DNA of 64,000 bases from Planctomycetaceae bacterium (GTDB lineage: Bacteria; Planctomycetota; Planctomycetia; Planctomycetales; Planctomycetaceae): positions 1 through 64,000 of the forward strand of contig JANSXP010000036.1 in the NCBI GenBank assembly GCA_024742875.1, given 5' to 3'. The notes beneath the pieces are model-generated. The model made no database searches, was not told where the DNA came from, and worked only from the letters and a program-made list of their open reading frames with translations. Of the stretch, positions 2,810 to 59,217 are shown piece after piece. Positions within the stretch are counted from its first letter, which is position 1. Each line of letters starts with the position of its first letter. The translations under genes and the position numbers were made by a program.

Positions 2810-3263
2810 GATTGTCGCACCTTAACAGGACATCCTCGGACAGATTGACGCGGTCACACGCGTCTGCCTCACAGCTCGCTTTCCGGATTCGCCGTCATGC
2901 CGCAGAGGCAGAGCGACTGAGAATCCGCATCCGGGGAGATCGAAAGCGAAAATCGGGATTCGTCGCCTGGAAGGCACATTTTAAGCGGTCGGAAGCCCCT
3001 GGTCCACGGCACAGCAGGATTCGCTGGGTGGGCGAGTCGGGGAAAGGGCGGTGATATTCAGGAATCGTGTTATTACTGTTGAAGATCTGTTTTTGGCCAG
3101 GTATCCTCCCGCGTTTCCGCTTTCGCGCGCTGGGCTCAGAATCCGCGCAATTCCGGCTGGACCAAGCTGTCGGAAGAAGCCGAAGTAGAACTCTTATCAG
3201 CGGTCCCGATCCGGCCGAACCCGCTGTTTTCACACGTTTTAGATCGAATCAAGGAACCTGGTT
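2810..3263. other. Divergent intergenic region, PQQ-like gene / rplY
   Basis: This 454-base stretch separates two divergent genes and should hold promoters for both. Short open frames exist on both strands but have Arg-rich translations with no family resemblance, so I regard the region as non-coding. One plausible sigma-70-like promoter toward rplY is listed separately. Confidence 0.6.
3079..3107 (+). promoter_or_regulatory. Candidate promoter upstream of rplY
   Basis: TTGAAG at 3079-3084 and TATCCT at 3102-3107 are separated by 17 bases, which matches the spacing of a housekeeping promoter. They lie about 155 bases before the rplY start. Planctomycete promoters are poorly defined, so this is only a candidate. 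Confidence 0.3.
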
Positions 3264-3827
3264 ATGACAGAGGACTTTCGTCTGTCAGCACAGAATCGAG
3301 AGCAGTTGGGCAGCCTGCATACGCGCCGACTGCGTGAGCAGGGTCGTGTTCCCGCAAACCTGTACGGATTCAAAAAGGACGCTGTGAATCTGAGCGTTTG
3401 CGCTGATGAAGTGGAAAAAATGGTGGCCAATGGCTCACGTGTCGTGGACGTCGATATCGACGGAAGCGTGGAAAAAGCCGTGATTCAGGAACTGCAGTGG
3501 GACATTTTCAGCACCCATGTGCGTCACGTGGACCTGAAGCGAGTGAATCCGGAAAGCGTCGTGACTGTTGACGTTGGTCTGGAAATTGTCGGTGAACCGC
3601 TGGGGCTGAAGGACGGCGGAGAAATGAAGCAGAGTCTGAAGCGGGTGACCGTGAAAGGCCCCGACTTCCGCATTCCACGCGTTATTCGCGTCCGTGTGGG
3701 GGCACTGCAGCTGGGCGGAGAAGTCAAAGTCAGCGATTTGGAGACGCCAGACGCTGTGGAAATCCTGACCGAGGCGAATTCGCTTGTGGTCAGGGTGATC
3801 GATCCCAAAGCGGCTGCCGCTGAGTAG
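3264..3827 (+). CDS. rplY: 50S ribosomal protein L25/general stress protein Ctc
   Basis: 187 residues, the long (Ctc/TL5) form with two domains. The N-terminal L25 domain binds 5S rRNA; the segment REQLGSLHTRRLREQGRVPA with the following NLYG is the recognisable core (residues about 13-36). The C-terminal beta domain covers about 95-180. The protein stabilises the central protuberance of the 50S subunit. The ATG at 3264 directly precedes the conserved domain. It heads a forward run with pth 35 bases downstream, an arrangement (ctc-pth) seen in many bacteria, and this run continues into rpsF, ssb and rplI. Co-transcription is an inference from orientation and spacing. Confidence 0.93.
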   Translation: MTEDFRLSAQNREQLGSLHTRRLREQGRVPANLYGFKKDAVNLSVCADEVEKMVANGSRVVDVDIDGSVEKAVIQELQWDIFSTHVRHVDLKRVNPESVVTVDVGLEIVGEPLGLKDGGEMKQSLKRVTVKGPDFRIPRVIRVRVGALQLGGEVKVSDLETPDAVEILTEANSLVVRVIDPKAAAAE

Positions 3828-13020: not shown

Positions 13021-16000
13021 TCAGGACTGCTCATCTTTTCTGAGAGAGCGTCGACGCGGGCGGGCTACCGCCAGCCCCAGACCAAGTCCGAGAACAGCGG
13101 CCGACGCGGCCTGGTCGTTTGACTCTTCCGACAGGTTTTCTGTGGCAAGTTCTCCCACAGCCCATTCGGTCATCACGGAATCCAGCTCCCGTTCATCTTC
13201 TGCCGGTAGTTCAACGGGCTGCTCCGCGGGGCTGACTGGCTGGGCGGGGGCTGCGGCAGCAACCATCATCTGTTCCGGCTCTGCCACTCCTGTGACGACA
13301 AACGTGTCGTGGAAGATGCGGTCTGCCGGAGCAGAAGCCAGCTGAATCTCTGGTCCGTCAATCGACAGGTCCGTGTCTGCCCCTTCAGCGGCGATGCTGA
13401 AGTCGACCGGCACGCTCCATGCTGAGAATTCACCCATTTCGCTGACGGCACGAATCCAGATGCGATAATCACCTACCGCGATGCCTGCCGGCAGATCGAA
13501 TGACGTGGTCAGCACGTTGGGGTCGTAAACGGCACGCGACTGAGGAATGTCGATGCGGTTGATCCAGATTTCGTATCGGGCCGCCTGATCGATTCCGGTA
13601 AAGGTGATCGTGCTGCCGGCGGCGATGGTGGAACCGCTGGCCGGGTCGGTGACGACCGGACGTCCGCCCACGGTGAAGGACGTGGGAGCCGACCAGACCG
13701 ACTGTGTGCCGTCCGCTGCAATCGCACGCACCCAGAACGTGTAGTTGCCGTTGACCAGGTCCTGTGGCGGAATTCGGGTTGTGCCATTGACAAACTGGTC
13801 TCGCAGGACGATTTCTGAACCACCGCCTGGCAGGCGACGATTCAGCCAGACATAGTAACGATCGGCCCCTTCGACTTCGTTCCAGCCCAGTTCAGGCGTG
13901 CGATCGAAAGTGGATCCTGTAGGACGCAGACCGGTGGGAGAGCCGAGGATGCTGAACGTGACCGGAGCACTCCAGTCGCCATTGAACCCGTCCGGAGCCG
14001 TGGCTCGAACCCACGCTTTGTAGGTTCCGCCCAGCAGACCGGCGGTCAGGGTGGCGAAGCTGGTGGTGTCCAGATTGACTTCCCGGATGACCTGGCTGAC
14101 GCCACGCGTGATGTCGTTCACCCACAGATCGTAGTTGGAGTCAACCACCGTGGACCAGGACAGGGTGGGAGGTGTGCTGGAGGCACCCGCTCCATTAACC
14201 GGATTGATAAAGACGGGAGGCGTGGTGACGCGGAATGTGTTGCCCGCTGACCAGAAGCCTGGCTGTTCCAGGCTGTCGTACGCACGGACCCAGTAACGGT
14301 AGATGCCGACGCCCATTTCCTGAGGCGGGACAAACTGCTCCAGACGAGCCAGTTCCACATTGTCGATGAACCAGTCGTCGTAGATGCCTGGTACTTCTTC
14401 TCCGTCGATGTTTGGCTGCGTCGATTTGCCAATGCTCTGGAAGCGGAAGGCAAAGTTGGCGTGCAGTGCGTCAGCTGGCAGGAAGATGGTGGAGTCTTCA
14501 AATACCGTCATGTCTTCGCCGGATCCGTTTTGTCGTTCGACGACAATCCACTGTCCGGCAGCGTTGCGGTAGGAAATCACAAGGTCTTCCCCGTTACCGG
14601 GAGACTCACCGCCACCGGTTTGCTGGAAGGAGTACCGCAGCTGCACACCTGAGGGTTCTTCACCGCCCCAGATCGCCGCCGAGGACGACAGGTCGAAGGT
14701 GGGAGAAATCAGGGAGTCGCCGCTGGCCGGATCTCCGTTCAGTCGGGCACTGAGTGAGCCGTTCTGTTCGTTGAGAGCCACGTCATCGATGGTGGCTCCG
14801 TCGTTGGTCCAGCCTTCCGTGGCAAACGAGCCGGATTCGAAGTTGTCGGTAAACAGAGGGGCGGACGCCGCAAAGTTCTCCAGTCGGTACAACTGCACAA
14901 TGTTCCGCGACACGTCGTTGACCCACAGGTCGTAGCGGGTGGCACCGTCGACAGCCCCCCATTGCAGCGCGGGCGTGGAATCGGGTGTGACGTTCACCGG
15001 TGACAGTGAGACGGGCGGTTCATGATCCAGTACTGTGAGGTCCAGCACGCCGTCCAGATAGCTGGTCGCTGAGCCCGTGATCGAAACCATCTGAGCGCGG
15101 TCGACACGATCATCATCCACCGAAGAAATCGTGAATGTGGCTGATGTTTCCCCGGCCGGAATAACGACCTGAGCAGGAATCGAGATTTCGGTCAGGTCGC
15201 TGTTGGTCAGTGTGACCACGACATCCTGATTCGGAATCAGAGCACTGAGGCTGACGGTGGCTTCCACCGTGGTGCCGGCGGTTTCCACAAAACTCTCATC
15301 GCCGGCTGCAACCGTGATAATGACCGCTTCAGAATCGAGGATGGTCAGGTCGAAGGTATCGCCGCTGACCGTTGGTGTGAGTGTGTCAGGATCATCGGCC
15401 GTGATGGTCACTATCTGCGTGCCATCAACGACGTCGTCTGACAGTGCGGTGGCCACAAACGAAACACTGAGCTGGTTGGCAGGGATCGTGACAGTGGCCG
15501 GAACAGTCAGAGCCGACGGATCACTGCTGGTCAGTGCGACTTCCTGAGGCGAGGTCAGGTCGTTGGCGTCCAGTCGTGTTACAAAGAAATCAATGTTGCC
15601 GTCATCTTCAAAAGATGGGTTGGCAAACGTTGACAGCGACAGTCTTGGTTCTTCGTCGGTGACGGTGATGTCTTCGCTGGCATCATCGACATAGCCGGGG
15701 GCAGTTGCCAGAATCTGGATGCCCGTCTGATCGCCGTCAAGCTCGAAGTCATCGACGGCATCAATCAGGAACGTGGCCGAAGATTCCATCGGGGGAATCA
15801 CGACGGTTGTGGGCACGGCCAGTTCGGACGTGTCGGTGCTCATCAGAGTAACAACCAGCGGGGTCGCTCTGGTGGAGTCGCTGCGTGTGACCGTGCCGAT
15901 CAGTGCACCGGATCCGGCGGCTTCTGATACCTGACTGGCACTGACGGCCAGAGTCAGGGTTTCCACATCCAGCACGTCAATTGTGGTGCTGCCATTGTTG

Positions 16001-19000
16001 AATCCCGGCAGGGAGACGTTGGTGGCTGTGACGCTGACCTGCTGGGTGCCGTCCACAATCTGGTCGTCCTGAGGAATCAGGTCGACGAACAGTTCGGAGG
16101 TGGCCGCCGGGAAGGTGACGTCAACAGACGCCTGTCCCACCTGATTGCCGAAGCTGAGCAGAATTTCTGACGGGTCGTTGGAGACGACTGTCACCGTAGC
16201 AGGAGCCAGTCCCAGTGTCTCGATGTCCAGGGCCCAGTCCAGCAGTACGCCGGAGTCTGTGATGTTGTCGTCGGAGATTTCCAGCGTCCAGCGGCCGGAA
16301 GGATTCTCGCCATCGAGTTTGCTCAGCAGTTCTTCCGGAATGAAGCGACCGGTGTACGGCGAAGAACCGTCCACGATGCGTGTGGCCGCTTCGTCGTCGA
16401 AGATCGTGTTTGTCATGCTGGATTCGTTGGAACCCAGGTCCGTGAACAGTTCCACACGCGTGCCCTGCGGGCTCACCAGGAACACGTCCAGGTCCGGAAT
16501 GAACGAGTGCTGCAGCGTGATGGTGACGTTCAGGTCGGTGATAATTGAGTTCTGAGCGGGAATCACAATTTCTGACAGCGTGACATCGCGATCCACGATG
16601 GCCAGTGGAGCACTTGGGGTCTGGATATCCAGACTCCAGTCGAGCAGCACACCCGTGTTACCCGTGGCATTGTCGGTCAGTTCCAGCGTCCACTGCCCCG
16701 AAGGATTCTGCTCATCAAAGTCAGACAGGGATCCCTGCGGACGGTAGATGCCGGTGTAAGGTGCCACCGAGCTGTCGTTCTCCAGTGAGCGGGATGCTTC
16801 ATCGTCAAACGTCGTCTCCGTCAGGCTCGTGCCGGTGATGGTCGGATTGGTGAACAGCGGCACGCGGGTTCCCGCCGGGCTGATCAGCACGGCGGTCAGG
16901 TCGGCCGGGTTGGCGTGCTCAATATTCAGGGTCACGTTCAGATCGGTGATGCTGGAACGCTGAGCGGGAATTTCAATCGTGGATGTCGTCACGCCGTTGT
17001 CTGTGATCGGAGTGGAGAACACAGGACGTGCGGCGGGCTTCTGTCCGGAGGCCGTGGCTCGCGTGAAGGCCTCTTCGGTGTAGGGACCATCGAGGTCTGT
17101 TCGGAAGACGCGAATGGCAGATGGGTACGGCAGATCGTTTTCGAACAGCGTCGGATTCATGGTGGTCGGATCCAGCGGGACGCTGGTTTCGATGCCCACT
17201 TCTTCAGAGTCGATGACGGAAATCACGGGTGACTCGGAAATGTAATGATCGGCAGATCCCACCAGTGTGACCAGCTGTGTGCCGTCCAGCAGCGCGTCCG
17301 GCAGGACGTCGACCATGACCGTGATGGACTGCTGTCCGGCGGGAATCACGACAGTCTGGCTCGCGGCGGGAATGCCGATTTCTGTCAGGTCACTGGAGGT
17401 CAGCGTCACAAACAGATCGCCCGATGGCAGGTCAGGGTTGCGGGCAAAGCTGATGAAGCTGACATCACCCGTATTCTCGAGGCTGGCCAGTGTGCCGGCG
17501 GCCAGATCTTCAAGGCTGCCGCTGATCACCTGACCGTTGACATCTGATGCCAGGAACGCGAGGCTCACGTTGGTCTCAACATCCACGATGTGTCCGAGGC
17601 CCGTGTTGTAGATGGCCTGTGTCTGTCCGACCGGATCAAAGACGCGGATGATGCCGCCGTTGGCACCTCCATACATCGTGCCGTCGACGCCAATCGACAG
17701 CGTATTCACGGCAGCATCCAGATCAATCGTGGCCAGCTGAGCGAGGGTCTCCGGATTGTAGACGGCAACACCCAGACCCGTTTCGAACAGGCCGTACAGC
17801 AGGCCATCGTGCAGGCCCACGGCCACGTCGCGGAAGTTCTGGTCGGCCGTGATCACGCCCGGCACATCGCCGCCGCCGATGTCCTGATTGAATGAATAGC
17901 CGCCGTTGTCCAGCAGGTCGATTGGACCGGTGGCTGGGTTGTTGTCCAGACGGTTGCCGTCGCGGTCGAACAGCTGGATACCCTGAGGATCGCCGTTGAC
18001 GTAAATGACATGATCGTGAGTCGTTGTCCCCACGGTGGCATCGGCGATGGCCGTGATGCCGTTGGTGCCGAAGCTCAGAATGCCGATATCCTGCTGCACC
18101 AAAGCGCCTGGCACCTGAGTGGCCTGACCGTTGGCCAGGTTGATCTCATAGATGTTGGCGTCTGTGAAGAACGTTGGCGTGTTCTTGGGCATCCCGAGAA
18201 CCAGCAGTCGCCCATCGGCGATGTTGTCCGCCTGAATGGCGCCCAGAGCGGGGTCCACGAACAGACCATTCAGTGTGGTCAGGGCAATCTGATTGCCCAC
18301 GAACTGGCGGGTCACCGGATCGTAACCCTTGATCACATATTCGCTGAACACGCCCACACCGGTCGGATCGTTAATGTAGATCCGGTTGTTGAGAATGGTC
18401 ATGCCTTTGGCCGCGTTGGAGCTCAGGCCAGGCAGCGCGTGACGTTCCAGGACCATTTCTGAGTCCGGATCGATCTTCAGCAGTTCGCTTTCGAAGTAGT
18501 CAAAGAAGAAACCACCCTGATTGGTACTGATGTCGGTGAGTACCCAGAGAGCTTCGCCGTCAAATGCCACCGTGATGGTTTGCCGCTGTCCGACCGTTGG
18601 TGGCGGCACAGGGATTGACTTGATCAGTTCGCCCGTCTGACTGTTGATCTCCTGCAGTTCGTTGCCGTTGATGGTGAACAATCGCGAACCCACGGCTGCC
18701 TGTCCGAATCGCACAGGATCATTGGTCGGGCTCGACATGTCGAATCGGAGCAGGCCACGCTGACCGTCACCGTCGTCCAGGTCGGTGACGAATACATAGT
18801 TGCCAATTGAAGTCACGCCACCCGTTGATGGGTCTGTGCCCGATGCGTTGATGCGGTCCGATGGATCAGCAAACGGCTGCAGCAGCCAGTGGTTGGCCGG
18901 GTTTGGATCGGTGGACGAAGGGTTGTAGACGGCCAGGAAGCCGTCAACCGTACCGTTGAACACTGCCACTCGACCATCATCCAGCACCTGAATATCGTGC

Positions 19001-22000
19001 ACCGTTTCAAACGACGGACGTGGCGGGTTGGGGTAGGGAATCGGGATTGTATCCAGCAGCGTGCCGGCGGCATCGTATCGCAGCAGATCGGTACCTCGAG
19101 CGACCCAGTGATCGTCCGGACCGCTGTCGACGTTGCTGCGTGTGACCGTCACGGGCACCTGAATGGGCTGATCGTCAACGGGCTCGGCCACCTGATTGCC
19201 GGCAAGTGACACAGAGATGGTTTCGTGATCCAGTACGGTGATAAAACCAACAGCATTCACTTCACCGCCCACAGAAACCGACAGCTCGACAAACTGGTCA
19301 CCGTCCAGGAAGGCGTCGTCCACAATCTCCACGTCAAAGTCCACAAACTCCACACCGGCGGGAATGGTGATCGTGGACTGTGGGAAGGTCAGTTCTGATG
19401 TGTCGGAAGAACCCAGTTCCACAGTGATTTCTGTGGTGTCCGGCGTTCCTTCCGGTCGCGTGATGCGGCCGAAGCCAACCTGCAGACCGGCATTCTCCAG
19501 CACAGATGTTTCATTGAATGACAGCTCCACTGCCGGCGGCAGCGCGCCCGTCATTTCAAACGTGTACTGTCCCAGGTTGCCGTATTGTGCCGGGTCCTGC
19601 ACGACGGGGAAGCCCTGGAAGTTGGTCAGGTACTGGTTGGAGATCGCAACAAAGTAGTCGCCCACTTCCAGTGTCGGCAGGAAGATTTCCGCCGTGACGC
19701 TCGCGGGTGAGCCATCCGACAGAGCGGGCGCCTGAATGCCGCTGGAGGCGACCAGATCCGGCGTCGTGGTGCCGTTGTCACGGAACAGCTGCAGTACCGG
19801 GTCGAAGTTTGTTCCCGGATTGGTGGCTCCGGCGTAAACGGCTGTCAGGTCAATGCCCGAGACACTCAGTCGGACATTGGTCGACGGTCGGGCGCGGAAG
19901 CGGAACCAGTCCGCATCGTCGACATCATTCTGCTGAGCGTCAAACACGCGCCCAATGATGCCCCGTTCGTTGACGGGAGTGTTCAGGTCCAGAGGCGTTG
20001 CCTGGAAAACATTCTGGCCGTGGTCATCAGCACGGAATCGCACCAGGTTGCGCGGGCTGGTGATGATTTCAATGGGATCCTGCGGAGACGGGACAGAACC
20101 GTCAGACAGTCGCAGTGTGTCTCGCAGACTGGCGGACGAGTTGCCGCCGACAGGGCCCAGTGCCGGCTGACCGACCACCAGGCCGTTGGGCGCGTTTCCG
20201 GCAAATGTGAAAGCGGGTTCCACCCCAAAACTGTTGAGGATGATGCCGGTGGCGGCAGCGGCGATGTCTTTGTTGTTGCCCGCGACATCCGGAAACGCGA
20301 TGGCCACATTCTGGATGTTGGGATTGGCGAATGGCGCTACGTTGGGTGTCAGGTAGCCAGCACCCGGGCCGGTGTTGACGTCGGTGAGCCAGTCAATGAA
20401 ACCGGTACCCGTTGTGTTCAGTGGCGTATTGGCTGTGGACAGCCAGCTGCCGTCACCGCCAATGATGACCTGCAGTGCTTCCTGGTTAGGGAATGCGCTG
20501 ATTGGTGATGTGGTGATGTTGATGTTGAACGGGGCAAAGTCTTCGGCCACGCGGTCGCGAATTTCCTGAATGGCCACTTCTTCGGCCGCAGAGAACGTTG
20601 TTTTGTCTCCGTCCAGGTCAAACGGTGGCACATAGAAATTGTTGGCCACGCCGTCGGCACGATGACGGGAGATGGAATCTTCAGTGACCACACCGCCGTT
20701 GAAGTCCAGGTAGATGGTCTTCAGGTCCGGACCGGCGGCTGCCGGCAGGAACGAGCTGAGACCACGTGCGGCAAACGGGACGGGCACTTCAAATTCGGAT
20801 GTCACGCCACCGATCGAGACGCTGTACGCTCCAATGTTGCCATATTCGCCACCATTGCTGACGGCGATGAAGTAGATACCGGCCGGCAGGTTTGGCTCAA
20901 CGATTTGGGAACCCAGAGTGCCCAGGCCATTGCTCGTGATGGCACCGGTCAGCGCCACACCGTTGGCATCAAACAGCTGCACCGTGGGGTTCAGGTTGGC
21001 ACCCGGGTTGGTGACGCCGTTATTGGAGAACGCATTTCCCTGAGAGGAAATGCTGTTGGCCAGATCCAGATTGGCCTGCGCGGTGATGGTCGTCGTGCCG
21101 CCGGCCGTGCTGAACTGGAAGAAGTCGACATCGCCGTTGGCTTCGATGAATCCGCCGGCACCCGATGCGGCCAGAGAAATGGGTGAGGCAAACGTCAGCG
21201 AGTCACCATGATCGTCCGGGCGGACGGTGAAGGAATTCGTGTTGTTGGTGATGATGCTGATGTCATCCTGACCGCCCGCGTTTGACCAGGTGTCTCGCCA
21301 TCCTGGGGGAAACGCATTGTTGTCGTCGTTCACGATGGCCGATGCCTCGGGCGTGTCGCCGCGTGTGGGCTCGTCCAGTCCCAGTGCGATACCGATGGCT
21401 TCACTCGCGCTGTACGCCACGTCGCGTCCCAGCTGTCCGGGCCGCGTCACGGCGCCTTCAAAACGAGGATGGCTGGTAAAGTCCTGAGGGAATACGAAGA
21501 CGGTGTTGGACGAGTTGGTGGTGTCCGTAAAGCCGTCCTGAATGGCGTTGTTGAACGAACGCAGTGACCAGTCAGCCGGGTCCGAGCCGTTGGGGAAGGG
21601 GTTGCTGTCGCCGCCAATGGCCACGCGGATGGTGGTGCCCACGGCAAAGCTGTCGGGCTCTTCGGTGGTGACGGTCACGTTGTCAAACGGCGAGAAGTCT
21701 TCGGCCACGCGAAGGTAAATCTCTTCGATGACTTCGCGTTCCTGAATCGTCCAGTTGTTGCGATTGCCGTCCAGGTCAAATCGCGGACTGATGACGTCGA
21801 AGGTGCCTTCCCGACGCGCCTCCCAGGCGGCGCTGTCGTCGTTGTACAGGTCGAAATCCAGATAAATGCTGATCGGGGCGCCCGGGTTGCTGTCAAACAG
21901 GTCCGGGTTCGTCAGCAGCAGGCGTTGCTCGAGCGACTCTGAGTTGTGGGGTGTTTGGGATTCGGTTCGGCGGGACTTCCGAGTGATATTGCGGGATTTC

Positions 22001-22035
22001 CGGAAGTTGGACAGCAGGGATTTCAGAACCGTCAT
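13021..22035 (-). CDS. Giant secreted multidomain protein (3004 residues)
   Basis: The ATG at 22035 has GAGGAT seven bases upstream. The N-terminus is basic and carries LEQRLLL (35-41), an LEPR-type motif known from large exported planctomycete proteins. Order, approximate: metalloprotease-like domain 56-228; PPC-like domain 268-410; second metalloprotease-like domain 438-608; second PPC-like 665-825; Calx-beta 830-920; a Calx-beta interrupted by a propeller-like region (970-1530); a Calx-beta interrupted by two proprotein-convertase P-like domains (1684-1806, 1817-1940); three or four more Calx-beta repeats to about 2320; four FN3-like repeats to about 2895, the first interrupted by a 180-residue jelly-roll-like domain (2390-2572). 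The C-terminus is a hydrophobic stretch plus basic tail (AVLGLGLGLAVARPRRRS), as in sorting signals. Both protease-like domains lack HExxH. Likely cell surface or extracellular; function unknown. Confidence 0.88.
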   Translation of the reverse strand: MTVLKSLLSNFRKSRNITRKSRRTESQTPHNSESLEQRLLLTNPDLFDSNPGAPISIYLDFDLYNDDSAAWEARREGTFDVISPRFDLDGNRNNWTIQEREVIEEIYLRVAEDFSPFDNVTVTTEEPDSFAVGTTIRVAIGGDSNPFPNGSDPADWSLRSFNNAIQDGFTDTTNSSNTVFVFPQDFTSHPRFEGAVTRPGQLGRDVAYSASEAIGIALGLDEPTRGDTPEASAIVNDDNNAFPPGWRDTWSNAGGQDDISIITNNTNSFTVRPDDHGDSLTFASPISLAASGAGGFIEANGDVDFFQFSTAGGTTTITAQANLDLANSISSQGNAFSNNGVTNPGANLNPTVQLFDANGVALTGAITSNGLGTLGSQIVEPNLPAGIYFIAVSNGGEYGNIGAYSVSIGGVTSEFEVPVPFAARGLSSFLPAAAGPDLKTIYLDFNGGVVTEDSISRHRADGVANNFYVPPFDLDGDKTTFSAAEEVAIQEIRDRVAEDFAPFNINITTSPISAFPNQEALQVIIGGDGSWLSTANTPLNTTGTGFIDWLTDVNTGPGAGYLTPNVAPFANPNIQNVAIAFPDVAGNNKDIAAAATGIILNSFGVEPAFTFAGNAPNGLVVGQPALGPVGGNSSASLRDTLRLSDGSVPSPQDPIEIITSPRNLVRFRADDHGQNVFQATPLDLNTPVNERGIIGRVFDAQQNDVDDADWFRFRARPSTNVRLSVSGIDLTAVYAGATNPGTNFDPVLQLFRDNGTTTPDLVASSGIQAPALSDGSPASVTAEIFLPTLEVGDYFVAISNQYLTNFQGFPVVQDPAQYGNLGQYTFEMTGALPPAVELSFNETSVLENAGLQVGFGRITRPEGTPDTTEITVELGSSDTSELTFPQSTITIPAGVEFVDFDVEIVDDAFLDGDQFVELSVSVGGEVNAVGFITVLDHETISVSLAGNQVAEPVDDQPIQVPVTVTRSNVDSGPDDHWVARGTDLLRYDAAGTLLDTIPIPYPNPPRPSFETVHDIQVLDDGRVAVFNGTVDGFLAVYNPSSTDPNPANHWLLQPFADPSDRINASGTDPSTGGVTSIGNYVFVTDLDDGDGQRGLLRFDMSSPTNDPVRFGQAAVGSRLFTINGNELQEINSQTGELIKSIPVPPPTVGQRQTITVAFDGEALWVLTDISTNQGGFFFDYFESELLKIDPDSEMVLERHALPGLSSNAAKGMTILNNRIYINDPTGVGVFSEYVIKGYDPVTRQFVGNQIALTTLNGLFVDPALGAIQADNIADGRLLVLGMPKNTPTFFTDANIYEINLANGQATQVPGALVQQDIGILSFGTNGITAIADATVGTTTHDHVIYVNGDPQGIQLFDRDGNRLDNNPATGPIDLLDNGGYSFNQDIGGGDVPGVITADQNFRDVAVGLHDGLLYGLFETGLGVAVYNPETLAQLATIDLDAAVNTLSIGVDGTMYGGANGGIIRVFDPVGQTQAIYNTGLGHIVDVETNVSLAFLASDVNGQVISGSLEDLAAGTLASLENTGDVSFISFARNPDLPSGDLFVTLTSSDLTEIGIPAASQTVVIPAGQQSITVMVDVLPDALLDGTQLVTLVGSADHYISESPVISVIDSEEVGIETSVPLDPTTMNPTLFENDLPYPSAIRVFRTDLDGPYTEEAFTRATASGQKPAARPVFSTPITDNGVTTSTIEIPAQRSSITDLNVTLNIEHANPADLTAVLISPAGTRVPLFTNPTITGTSLTETTFDDEASRSLENDSSVAPYTGIYRPQGSLSDFDEQNPSGQWTLELTDNATGNTGVLLDWSLDIQTPSAPLAIVDRDVTLSEIVIPAQNSIITDLNVTITLQHSFIPDLDVFLVSPQGTRVELFTDLGSNESSMTNTIFDDEAATRIVDGSSPYTGRFIPEELLSKLDGENPSGRWTLEISDDNITDSGVLLDWALDIETLGLAPATVTVVSNDPSEILLSFGNQVGQASVDVTFPAATSELFVDLIPQDDQIVDGTQQVSVTATNVSLPGFNNGSTTIDVLDVETLTLAVSASQVSEAAGSGALIGTVTRSDSTRATPLVVTLMSTDTSELAVPTTVVIPPMESSATFLIDAVDDFELDGDQTGIQILATAPGYVDDASEDITVTDEEPRLSLSTFANPSFEDDGNIDFFVTRLDANDLTSPQEVALTSSDPSALTVPATVTIPANQLSVSFVATALSDDVVDGTQIVTITADDPDTLTPTVSGDTFDLTILDSEAVIITVAAGDESFVETAGTTVEATVSLSALIPNQDVVVTLTNSDLTEISIPAQVVIPAGETSATFTISSVDDDRVDRAQMVSITGSATSYLDGVLDLTVLDHEPPVSLSPVNVTPDSTPALQWGAVDGATRYDLWVNDVSRNIVQLYRLENFAASAPLFTDNFESGSFATEGWTNDGATIDDVALNEQNGSLSARLNGDPASGDSLISPTFDLSSSAAIWGGEEPSGVQLRYSFQQTGGGESPGNGEDLVISYRNAAGQWIVVERQNGSGEDMTVFEDSTIFLPADALHANFAFRFQSIGKSTQPNIDGEEVPGIYDDWFIDNVELARLEQFVPPQEMGVGIYRYWVRAYDSLEQPGFWSAGNTFRVTTPPVFINPVNGAGASSTPPTLSWSTVVDSNYDLWVNDITRGVSQVIREVNLDTTSFATLTAGLLGGTYKAWVRATAPDGFNGDWSAPVTFSILGSPTGLRPTGSTFDRTPELGWNEVEGADRYYVWLNRRLPGGGSEIVLRDQFVNGTTRIPPQDLVNGNYTFWVRAIAADGTQSVWSAPTSFTVGGRPVVTDPASGSTIAAGSTITFTGIDQAARYEIWINRIDIPQSRAVYDPNVLTTSFDLPAGIAVGDYRIWIRAVSEMGEFSAWSVPVDFSIAAEGADTDLSIDGPEIQLASAPADRIFHDTFVVTGVAEPEQMMVAAAAPAQPVSPAEQPVELPAEDERELDSVMTEWAVGELATENLSEESNDQAASAAVLGLGLGLAVARPRRRSLRKDEQS

Positions 22036-56748: not shown

Positions 56749-59217
56749 CTACTGCGTGACCCTTTGCGGCTGCACGTAAAACTCGCTCAGCAGGCTGCCA
56801 TCACCGGCGTTCCAAAGACGCACCTGACCGTCGTAGCTGCCGGTGACGAGCAGTTTCTGAGCGTCGTGAAAGTCCATCGCGTACACCCAGTCCCGATGTC
56901 CGCTGAAGTCCTGCAGCATGCTGCCGTCTGCGAGGCTGTGGCTTCGTGCCATGCGGTCGGCCGACGCCGTCAGCACCCGATTGTCCGACGTCACCAGTAC
57001 GCGGAAGATGTCGCTGTCAAAGCCCTCAATGGTGCGAATGACTTTCCCGCTGGCAGCGTCAAATACGCGGGCCGTCTGATCGCTGCCCACGCTGACGACC
57101 TGCTGACCGTCGCGACTGAATGCCGCTGAATACACGGGCTGCGTGTGCGCGGCATTCCGGCTGATCAGGGTGAGTGACGCCGTCTCGAACACCCGCACAA
57201 TCCCGTCACGACAGGCCGTCACAAGCGCTGCCCCGTCCGGCGACCAGTTAACGTCTGTGACCCAGTCGGCGTGCGGCGGCAGGCGGCGAGTGTGCATGGT
57301 GTCGGGGCTGACAAGACTCACTTCCCCGGCGGCCGTCGTCACCGCCAGCTCCTTCCCGGATGGCGAGAGGCTGACGGCAAGAATGGCGTCATTGCGACGC
57401 AGCAGTGTCCGCGCTGGAGAACCGTCATCCAGCGAAAACATTTTCACTTCGCCGTAGACTCCGGGGACGCTGGCAGCAGCCATCAGGAATTTTCCATCGG
57501 CGCTGAACGCCAGGTCGCTCACCAGTTCGGCCACATTGCCGATCCGCTGTTGCAGCCGCCCATCGCGGGCATTCCAGATCAGCAGTTCATTCTGCCCGGC
57601 TGTGGCCAGTTGACTGCCGTCCGGATGCATGGCCAGTGAAGTCACTGGCAAGGGCACGCGATAGCTGACGGGGGCTGCCGGCTGTGGTTTCTCGGGGACA
57701 ACATCAAAAACGCTGGCCGTTCGATCCCGACCAGAGTCGTTGATCGCTCCATCGTCCAGCCAGCGACGCAGCAGTTCCTGCTGATCAGCCGTCAGGGGCT
57801 CCGCGTCTTTGGGCATGGCACCGGACGTCACCACCTGCCACAGCCGTGATGACTGGTGGCCTGTCGGATCGAGCAGCGGGCCCGACTTTCCACCGTGCAG
57901 CAGGCCCGCCAGGGAGTCGAGCCGCAAATCGCCGGCCGACGATTTGGTGTCGTGACAACTTACGCAGCGACCAGCCAGAATCGGAGCGATGTGCTGGGAA
58001 TATGACACCAGGCGTCCTGCCTTTTTCAGGCCGTCGGCCGCCGCCGCTTCCCGCGTTTTGACTTCCTGCTCCAGTCTGACAATCTCGGCCTGCTGCTGTT
58101 TCAGGCTTTCGGCTCGGGATGGTTCCTGCTGTTTCAGTGTGTCCAGCTCGGCTTTGGCCGTGGTTTCCTTTTTTGTCAGTCGTCGCTGGTTGTTCTGCAG
58201 ATCGGCAATCGCCAGCTGCAGTTCAAAATGAGCACGGCTGATGTCTGCCTGCTGTGTCTGCCGGCCAGCCATCGATGCCTGGGCGGTCTCCGCTTTTTTG
58301 ATGGCCGCGGTGACAGCGCCGCGGGCCGTCTGTTCCCGCTGTTTGGCTTTCTCCACCGCCTGCCGGGCTTTAGCGACCAGCATTTCGACCCCGACAATGG
58401 ACTGATCCAGTTCCCCGGTGACGGTTGCCGGATCCATGCCGGCGGCTTCCGCTGCACTGCGAATGGTCTGGCGTGTTTTGTTCAGTGCTGCGAGACTGGC
58501 GTCCGCTTTCTTCAGTGCTGCGACTGCCGTCGCCACCTGTCGGGAATCAGCATCCAGTTCCTGCTGTGGCGTTTCCAATTCGCCTTTGGCCGCCTTCCAC
58601 TGCTGCTGAGCGACAGCGAGTGCCTGACCAGCCTGCTCCAGTTGCTCGCGCGCCTGCTTCAGTTCCTGCAGCCGCGACTGCACACTCTTTTCACTGTCCG
58701 CTCGTTCTTTGGCCATCGTCACCAGCGACTGCTGCAACTGCTGCATCCGCTCGGTTGCCTTTTGCTGGTCAGTGACGATTTCCTGTTTGCGGGCGATCGC
58801 TTTGTCCAGGTCCGCCTGAGCCGTCTTGAGTTCGGCAACCAGTTTGTCGGCCCGTTGATGTCGCTTCAGAGACTCACGCAGTTCGGCAAGCATCTTTCCC
58901 CGTGTTTCGATCTCCCTGCCAGCCTGCTCGAACGCTTTGCGATCGGCTTCCACCTGAGCTTTGGCCTTTTCCAGCTGCTGCTGCAGCTTTTCCACCTGCT
59001 GCTGAGCGATGTCCATCGACGCTTCTTTGAGAGCGGCCGTGCGTCGTGCCGTCTTGTGTTCCGCGTCCGCACGCTGGAGCTTCTTAAGCACAGAGGCGGT
59101 ATCCGTGTCGGCGATGACTGGTGAGACCGTTGCCAGCAGGACAGCAATCGACAGGCAATGCGTCAGGCGTGGACAAGTCAAAAGACGAAGCGAATGGCGG
59201 TGAGGGCGCGAGGTCAT
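56749..59217 (-). CDS. Cytochrome c (planctomycete type) plus WD40 protein
   Basis: 822 residues from the ATG at 59217, with GGAG six bases upstream. A signal peptide (about 8-36) precedes a coiled-coil region of roughly 350 residues. Then comes a planctomycete-type cytochrome c segment, YSQHIAPILAGRCVSCHDTK with heme motif CVSCH (about 415), and TSGAMPKDAEPL supplying a likely Met ligand. The remainder (about 505-820) is a WD40 propeller with blades such as VTDVNWSPDGAALVTACRDG and VYSAAFSRDGQQVVSVGSDQ. Such proteins occur in planctomycete gene clusters with DUF1549/DUF1553 partners; none is adjacent here. Probably exported. Confidence 0.87.
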   Translation of the reverse strand: MTSRPHRHSLRLLTCPRLTHCLSIAVLLATVSPVIADTDTASVLKKLQRADAEHKTARRTAALKEASMDIAQQQVEKLQQQLEKAKAQVEADRKAFEQAGREIETRGKMLAELRESLKRHQRADKLVAELKTAQADLDKAIARKQEIVTDQQKATERMQQLQQSLVTMAKERADSEKSVQSRLQELKQAREQLEQAGQALAVAQQQWKAAKGELETPQQELDADSRQVATAVAALKKADASLAALNKTRQTIRSAAEAAGMDPATVTGELDQSIVGVEMLVAKARQAVEKAKQREQTARGAVTAAIKKAETAQASMAGRQTQQADISRAHFELQLAIADLQNNQRRLTKKETTAKAELDTLKQQEPSRAESLKQQQAEIVRLEQEVKTREAAAADGLKKAGRLVSYSQHIAPILAGRCVSCHDTKSSAGDLRLDSLAGLLHGGKSGPLLDPTGHQSSRLWQVVTSGAMPKDAEPLTADQQELLRRWLDDGAINDSGRDRTASVFDVVPEKPQPAAPVSYRVPLPVTSLAMHPDGSQLATAGQNELLIWNARDGRLQQRIGNVAELVSDLAFSADGKFLMAAASVPGVYGEVKMFSLDDGSPARTLLRRNDAILAVSLSPSGKELAVTTAAGEVSLVSPDTMHTRRLPPHADWVTDVNWSPDGAALVTACRDGIVRVFETASLTLISRNAAHTQPVYSAAFSRDGQQVVSVGSDQTARVFDAASGKVIRTIEGFDSDIFRVLVTSDNRVLTASADRMARSHSLADGSMLQDFSGHRDWVYAMDFHDAQKLLVTGSYDGQVRLWNAGDGSLLSEFYVQPQRVTQ

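Follow-up and report, generated by a model that had tools for sequence, protein, structure and literature searches.

Does a giant planctomycete protein carry whole domains inserted into the loops of other domains, and does one loop serve as a general site for such insertion? The question arose from a 64,000-nucleotide stretch of DNA of a Planctomycetaceae bacterium (the window, i.e. the whole stretch that was analysed). Its open reading frame at 13021-22035 on the minus strand starts with ATG and encodes 3004 amino acids in a single open frame with no stop inside. An earlier note had read its translation as Calx-beta-type and FN3-like repeats interrupted by other domains. All motifs quoted there were recovered by motif search, with residue numbers accurate to within a few residues: VTRSNVDSGP at 964-973, RNPDLPSGDLF at 1532-1542, VFRTDLDGPYT at 1643-1653, VTVVSNDPSEI at 1948-1958, QLYRLENFAA at 2381-2390 and QEMGVGIYRYW at 2572-2582. 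The 3004 residues contain no cysteine, no HExxH and no match to the RTX nonapeptide GG.G.[DN]D. In a Pfam search with the whole protein, no propeller, FN3 or Calx-beta model matched; CopC (E 0.02) and Peptidase_C41 (E 0.25) appeared below cut-off. Judging from its domain content and from its N-terminus, which presumably is of the planctomycete type, this is probably a secreted or surface protein. Its Ig-like repeats, six Calx-beta-like (CB0 to CB5) and four FN3-like, stand in tandem, and three of them are split by inserts. From the N- to the C-terminus the features are:

13021-22035, minus strand: complete open reading frame of the giant multidomain protein, 3004 aa
21226-21873, minus strand: metalloprotease-like domain 1, residues 55-270, zinc motif missing (BLAST)
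20776-21225, minus strand: PPC-like domain 1, residues 271-420, assigned by eye and unnamed by Pfam
20041-20748, minus strand: metalloprotease-like domain 2, residues 430-665, zinc motif missing
19540-20040, minus strand: PPC-like domain 2, residues 666-832 (Pfam PPC, E 0.0062, under the curated cut-off)
19225-19530, minus strand: uninterrupted Calx-beta-like repeat CB0, residues 836-937 (profile)
19120-19224, minus strand: N-part of split CB1, residues 938-972, strands A, A' and B
17443-19119, minus strand: insert 1, propeller-like region, residues 973-1531 (strands, Foldseek, sequence profile)
17203-17442, minus strand: C-part of split CB1, residues 1532-1611, strands C-G
17080-17202, minus strand: N-part of split CB2, residues 1612-1652, strands A, A' and B
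16618-17016, minus strand: insert 2a, P domain 1, residues 1674-1806 (Pfam PF01483)
16204-16617, minus strand: insert 2b, P domain 2, residues 1807-1944 (Pfam PF01483), with a counterpart in 22 of 22 proteins
15964-16203, minus strand: C-part of split CB2, residues 1945-2024, strands C-G
15022-15960, minus strand: three uninterrupted Calx-beta-like repeats, CB3-CB5, residues 2026-2338 (profile)
14863-15021, minus strand: N-part of the split FN3-like unit, residues 2339-2391 (profile)
14323-14862, minus strand: insert 3, jelly-roll-like domain, residues 2392-2571, MAM-like by eye only
14224-14322, minus strand: C-part of the split FN3-like unit, residues 2572-2604 (profile)
13396-14223, minus strand: three uninterrupted FN3-like units, residues 2605-2880 (profile; AlphaFold2 model to 2790)
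13024-13203, minus strand: C-terminal tail with a D-x-V-M-x-x-W motif, a short hydrophobic stretch and an Arg/Lys cluster

Homologues were collected from 58 genomes, the window's own (G000) among them. The propeller, the P domain and the N-terminal parts were matched in five other genomes (G003, G004, G005, G006 and G012). Three more, G001, G002 and G007, gave piecewise matches; they were identified via the jelly-roll insert itself and are counted as pieces because none has a propeller match. Across 170 genomes of the family, the propeller part was matched (E<=1e-6) in 24, own genome counted. A contig scan yielded 19 loci, of which 12 were aligned and seven (L120, L122, L123, L124, L126, L127 and L128) were dropped because the match covers only part of the propeller; L110, L111, L112 and L118 correspond, in this order, to the records G003, G005, G006 and G012. 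The 12 aligned loci, the window and G004 form a 14-protein set. A 23-protein set adds nine proteins (G064, G065, G066, G144, G146, G149, G150, G151 and G154), G091 being excluded for its weak match. The gene of G005 appears to be spread over two contigs, with the insert on one and the propeller on the other; the first 49 bases of the insert contig recur unchanged close to the end of the propeller contig, which fits a single gene without proving it.

The Calx-beta-like sequence breaks where the earlier note had said, CB1 around the propeller-like region of about 560 residues and CB2 around the P domains. Compared with the 104-column host profile by hhalign, the N-part of CB1 aligned to positions 3-33 with a score of 52.4 and the N-part of CB2 to positions 4-32 with a score of 31.6 (13 rows) or 31.1 (14 rows), while the control maximum was 17.6 for 222 overlapping 37-residue segments, cut at a step of 9 from other parts of the family. 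The CB2 N-part scored 15.0 when gap-rich columns, filled by one row's insert, were kept. The C-parts aligned to positions 35-104 (CB1) and 39-104 (CB2; 33-100 by the single-sequence profile), with probabilities of 99.8 and 99.4. The two cuts thus coincide in the repeat, at about position 33, as had been proposed.

A single-sequence profile was built from 52 uninterrupted repeats (CB0 and CB3-CB5) of the 14 proteins, cut repeats excluded, and was run over these proteins, their reversals and the nine added proteins. It detected the CB1 N-part in 23 of 23 proteins (window, -1.8 bits), ending at positions 30-43 in 18 and running to 56-90 in five. The CB2 N-part was detected in 18 of 22 proteins, at 1.0-12.6 bits, and missed in four, the window included; reversed sequences score up to 8.6 bits, so single weak matches to this profile prove little. 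Matches to the CB2 C-part started at position 32-34 in 20 of 22 proteins and at 41-42 in the other two (G149 and G150), those to the CB1 C-part at 25-33 in 16 of 23 and at 5-15 in seven. Among six proteins, T963, R966, S967, N968 and D970 of the CB1 N-part are invariant. Six of 40 uninterrupted repeats were recognised by Pfam PF03160 at E<=1, with 2.8e-5 as the best value, and the repeat in the first row, which comes from the window, went unmatched; the Calx-beta-like repeat profile retrieved the NCX1 Calx-beta structures (2fws, E 0.0012). Because the propeller is present in 23 of 23 proteins and the P domain in 22 of 22, there is no orthologous empty site for CB1 or CB2, and only sibling repeats serve as the uncut comparison.

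AlphaFold2 models were obtained for residues 836-2026 (13 sequences, pLDDT 77.7, pTM 0.44) and 2024-2790 (12 sequences, pLDDT 85.1, pTM 0.51). The uncut CB0 has eight predicted strands, read A, A', B, C, D, E, F and G. CB1 has three strands before the propeller and five after it, and CB2 has three before the P domains and the rest after; the cut was therefore read as lying in the B-C loop. The strand order fits the earlier expectation that the flanking halves belong to one sandwich, with A-A'-B before and C-G after each Calx-beta insert as in CB0, in models of low pTM. Together with the complementarity of the profile matches, this order suggests that the halves of each cut host would pack into one sandwich. 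Ig and FN3 receptors were among the Foldseek matches of the second model, as were complement-type and axonemal chains.

The propeller-like region is unmatched in Pfam. With the model of residues 836-2026 as query, the top Foldseek match was the propeller 2ymu (E 5.7e-13). The 50 matches listed include numerous propeller proteins along with other chains, TM-scores being low throughout. A sequence profile of the region matched the designed propellers Cake9 and Cake10 (E 1e-6). AlphaFold2 predicted 42 strands, which would make 10-11 blades and exceed one usual propeller. The region is found in 23 of 23 proteins and measures 485-568 residues in 22 of them. In L119 it has 259 residues, the middle blades being gone in frame; this is a single MAG, and an assembly fault may be the cause.

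Between residues 1653 and 1948 the two P domains announced by the earlier note were confirmed as two stretches of PF01483 (E 9.1e-28; 96.6 bits against a curated cut-off of 21, the separate domains reaching 55.2 and 53.7 bits). Among the 22 proteins that cover the CB2 loop, a single P domain occupies the site in 20, and a pair does so in the window and G066. P domain 2 is the common one of the window's pair and P domain 1 the extra. The doubled P domain of G066 (L176) occupies the same loop, at residues 1392-1521 and 1533-1660 of its frame. A tree of 19 P domains, rough and with bootstrap not settled, groups the G066 pair together (94/90) and sets P domain 1 of the window apart, in an unsupported placement; the doubling probably arose separately in the two lineages. 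The idea that P domain 1 is a recent copy of P domain 2 was dropped, since the two are only 52-53% identical, and P domain 1 is thus old or brought in. In G006 (L112), CB2, the host of the P domain, also has roughly 110 additional residues inserted between its strands A and A'.

The third break also stood up: the first FN3-like unit is split by a jelly-roll-like domain of 180 residues, and the three following units are uncut. An FN3-like profile matched the first unit in two parts in the window (positions 2-67 and 55-91, the first match extending about 12 positions into the insert), G005 (2-54 and 55-91), G001 (2-76 and 58-91), G003 and G006, and in one piece in G004 (7-91, 70.9 bits), L113, L116 and eight of the nine added proteins. 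No Pfam FN3 family model was matched by the whole protein or by units 1 and 2 alone. The jelly-roll-like domain is likewise unmatched in Pfam, and the search by sequence for its solved relatives gave a best E of only 0.34.

Comparison with homologues showed that this loop can be filled or empty. Of 26 proteins, the window included, eight have it filled (window, G003, G006, G012, G005, G001, G002 and G007, with G002 and G007 counted though their contigs begin or end within the insert). It is empty in 16 (G004, L113, L114, L115, L116, L119, L121 and L125, and G064, G065, G066, G144, G149, G150, G151 and G154 among the added proteins), and two (L117 and G146) were left unassigned. In a tree of residues 836-2024 from the 14 proteins, the empty G004 is sister to the filled G006 (100/99), within a clade of six proteins of which five have the loop filled; two changes are required on the tree. 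Since G004 is empty within a filled clade, the insert appears to have been lost and to have left a continuous domain. One gain and one loss, the latter leaving the host continuous, would be the simplest history.

The same modules were also seen in other hosts. The jelly-roll profile found two copies in a 6394-aa frame of G004 (L151; residues 1326-1476 and 1945-2099) and a distant copy near the N-terminus of a 2978-aa frame of G003, while the window's own genome gave no further copy at E<=0.01. By eye, one of the L151 hosts resembles a beta-helix and the other a PPC-like stretch. A search of G000, G003, G004 and G006 returned five stretches homologous to the L151 frame in which the flanks are adjacent (two in G003, one each in G000 and G006, and one elsewhere in G004). 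The two insert sites hold 151 and 155 residues in L151 against 0-3 in these five; in contig C122 of G000, for example, the flanks meet at 57771/57775 and 59130/59137. The idea that the jelly roll had moved from the FN3 site into the other G004 hosts was considered and set aside, as the module tree supports one of six inner branches and is uninformative.

P domains occur at residues 1155-1276 and 3229-3353 of a 6649-aa frame in G000 (L130, contig C59), where by eye, against sibling repeats, they appear between the segments read as strands F and G in Calx-beta-like repeats and so seem to use the F-G loop. In L129, L130 and L132, three other frames of this genome, 11 strong matches to the Calx-beta profile (>=45 bits; the count covers strong matches only, and one of them ends with its contig) are uncut across position 33. 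On 23 P-domain frames from other genomes, at loci L022-L045, the profile, which is tuned to the 3004-aa protein, found nothing. The proposal of an insertion-tolerant scaffold holds in part. It is backed by whole domains placed in loops, including two that share a host position, and by empty FN3 sites, and it is strengthened by the jelly-roll copies in other hosts of G004 and by the P domains that seem to interrupt repeats in L130; 'one loop' as a general rule was rejected in view of the apparent use of the F-G loop in L130, the A-A' insert in G006 and the 11 uncut matches.

In the N-terminal part (20041-21873), metalloprotease-like and PPC-like domains alternate twice, and neither metalloprotease-like copy has HExxH. 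BLAST with the metalloprotease-like domains matched 11 loci, nine of which keep HExxHxxGxxH; the other two, L058 and L059, are short frames. Among the 14 homologues, L113 and L114 retain one copy each of HEFGH. By these motif comparisons, the two domains are classed as tandem pseudoproteases in the window's lineage. An NCBIfam Por_Secre_tail match at residues 341-396 (23.5 bits, cut-off 23) was taken as spurious because its position is not C-terminal. At the other end, D-x-V-M-x-x-[WL] recurs in the tails of 10 of 14 homologues, namely those that reach the C-terminus, and is followed by WW in nine; it is possibly a sorting signal. A search for this tail in other proteins of the window's genome gave no clear second case (best E 0.017).

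From the directly observed cut points, host-profile matches, filled and empty sites and differences in cargo between species, we consider it quite probable that the protein is a stalk of tandem Ig-like repeats in which three split hosts carry the propeller-like region, the P domain or domains and the jelly roll. The Calx-beta-like and FN3-like repeats would form the stalk, perhaps stiffened by calcium, a property of the Calx-beta family. Provided that the termini of an insert are adjacent, the host could still close its sandwich, and after export the split hosts would hold their cargo out sideways, by analogy with split-domain RTX-type adhesins. The cargo would be the likely recognition part, with glycans, matrix or other cells as candidate ligands.

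A more far-reaching version is one in which we place slightly less trust than doubt. Here the jelly roll would be, within this genus, a roaming module that entered three unlike hosts with empty counterparts and left at least one host whole, and the stalks would bear re-loadable sockets, mostly at the pole of the antibody loops, with the P socket doubled twice. The B-C, F-G and C'-E loops share one pole of Ig-like folds, which would be the pole of the antibody binding loops.

The inserts might instead be tolerated passengers of neutral modular drift that lengthen the protein without recognition work. Cargo is indeed changeable, as the jelly roll is missing in G004, the P domain is doubled in two of 22 proteins and the propeller is reduced to 259 residues in L119. 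Moreover, in the five orthologues the propeller (37-47% identity to the window) is conserved no better than the stalk (CB0, 38-49%). Against drift, the propeller is retained in all 23 proteins and the P domain in all 22 that cover its site. P domain 2 (57-70%) also lies above CB0 and the CB1 C-part (38-51%), though its conservation resembles that of CB3 (52-63%) and of the N-part of FN3-like unit 1 (53-74% where covered). On balance we judge drift unlikely.

It is more improbable still that the flanks of CB1 are not one domain, the C-part borrowing the last propeller strand as its strand B and the propeller lying between two partly decayed domains. This would suit the seven proteins in which the C-part match starts at position 5-15 (window, L110, L113, L118, G146, G150 and G151), as these matches include the last propeller strand, and AlphaFold2 places a strand there (model 691-695). 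As a 14-row profile, however, the extended stretch scored 15.2, within the control range (maximum 17.6), compared with 52.4 for the CB1 N-part. Strand borrowing would furthermore orphan the conserved A-A'-B segment with its five invariant residues, and it is inapplicable to CB2 and the FN3-like unit. An artefact of assembly or gene prediction, which the 168 contigs of the window's genome, the broken gene of G005 and the fragments in G001, G002 and G007 might suggest, has next to no probability given the single open frame and a domain order that is identical in independent assemblies, among them the single 8.9 Mb contig of G004 (8,920,478 bases).

The preferred reading, recognition domains carried by split hosts of an Ig-like stalk, has several relatives among known systems. 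In integrins, the I domain and the hybrid domain of the beta subunit are cases of a recognition domain inserted in a propeller or Ig-like loop; these are animal receptors, and no homology to the window protein is claimed. For RTX adhesins, Graham et al. 2024 is reportedly the cited source of the split-domain principle. Ligand-binding domains that emerge from split domains are described for RTX adhesins, with crystal structures (PMC12077191, in the part covered), and split Ig-like domains are named for FrhA and MpIBP (PMC10865825, likewise in part). The window protein resembles these adhesins (MpIBP, FrhA, AhLap) in having Ig-like hosts interrupted by a projecting domain and tandem Ig-like extenders, as far as the covered parts of both papers describe them; profiles, empty sites and predicted strand order all point to Ig-like domains interrupted by another domain. 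It differs from them in lacking an RTX motif within its 3004 residues. Its hosts are Calx-beta-like and FN3-like, its cargo is propeller-like region, P domain and jelly roll, it belongs to a planctomycete, and its family shows filled and empty states between sister species.

Further comparisons are looser. In Lipin/Pah, two distant stretches also co-fold into one Ig-like domain, but this is a eukaryotic enzyme, and the covered part of PMC7066176 describes the intervening stretch as a linker rather than a domain. Fuerstia marisgermanicae NH11 has 45 genes above 5 kb, and giant genes are reported to code mostly for surface proteins or PKS/NRPS (PMC5177795, in part). Domain insertion is not mentioned in the part covered, and the main text nowhere uses 'calx' or 'propeller'. 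Insertion as such is common, since insertions are given for 20% of multidomain proteins (PMC13114784, in part). No planctomycete split-domain protein turned up in a literature search that covered mostly openly available papers, and the sources, partly covered, gave no precedent for such hosts with such cargo, for the lineage, for the same loop serving twice within a protein, or for natural filled and empty pairs. Compared with the RTX adhesins, the present protein would extend the split-domain principle to planctomycete giant proteins. Because its FN3 loop is filled in some relatives and empty in others, plugged-in parts can be traced as they are gained and lost, and the closely related filled and empty sites offer natural pairs for studying loop tolerance, host-sparing loss and cargo exchange. 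Split hosts may likewise help to locate recognition domains in giant proteins where Pfam finds nothing.
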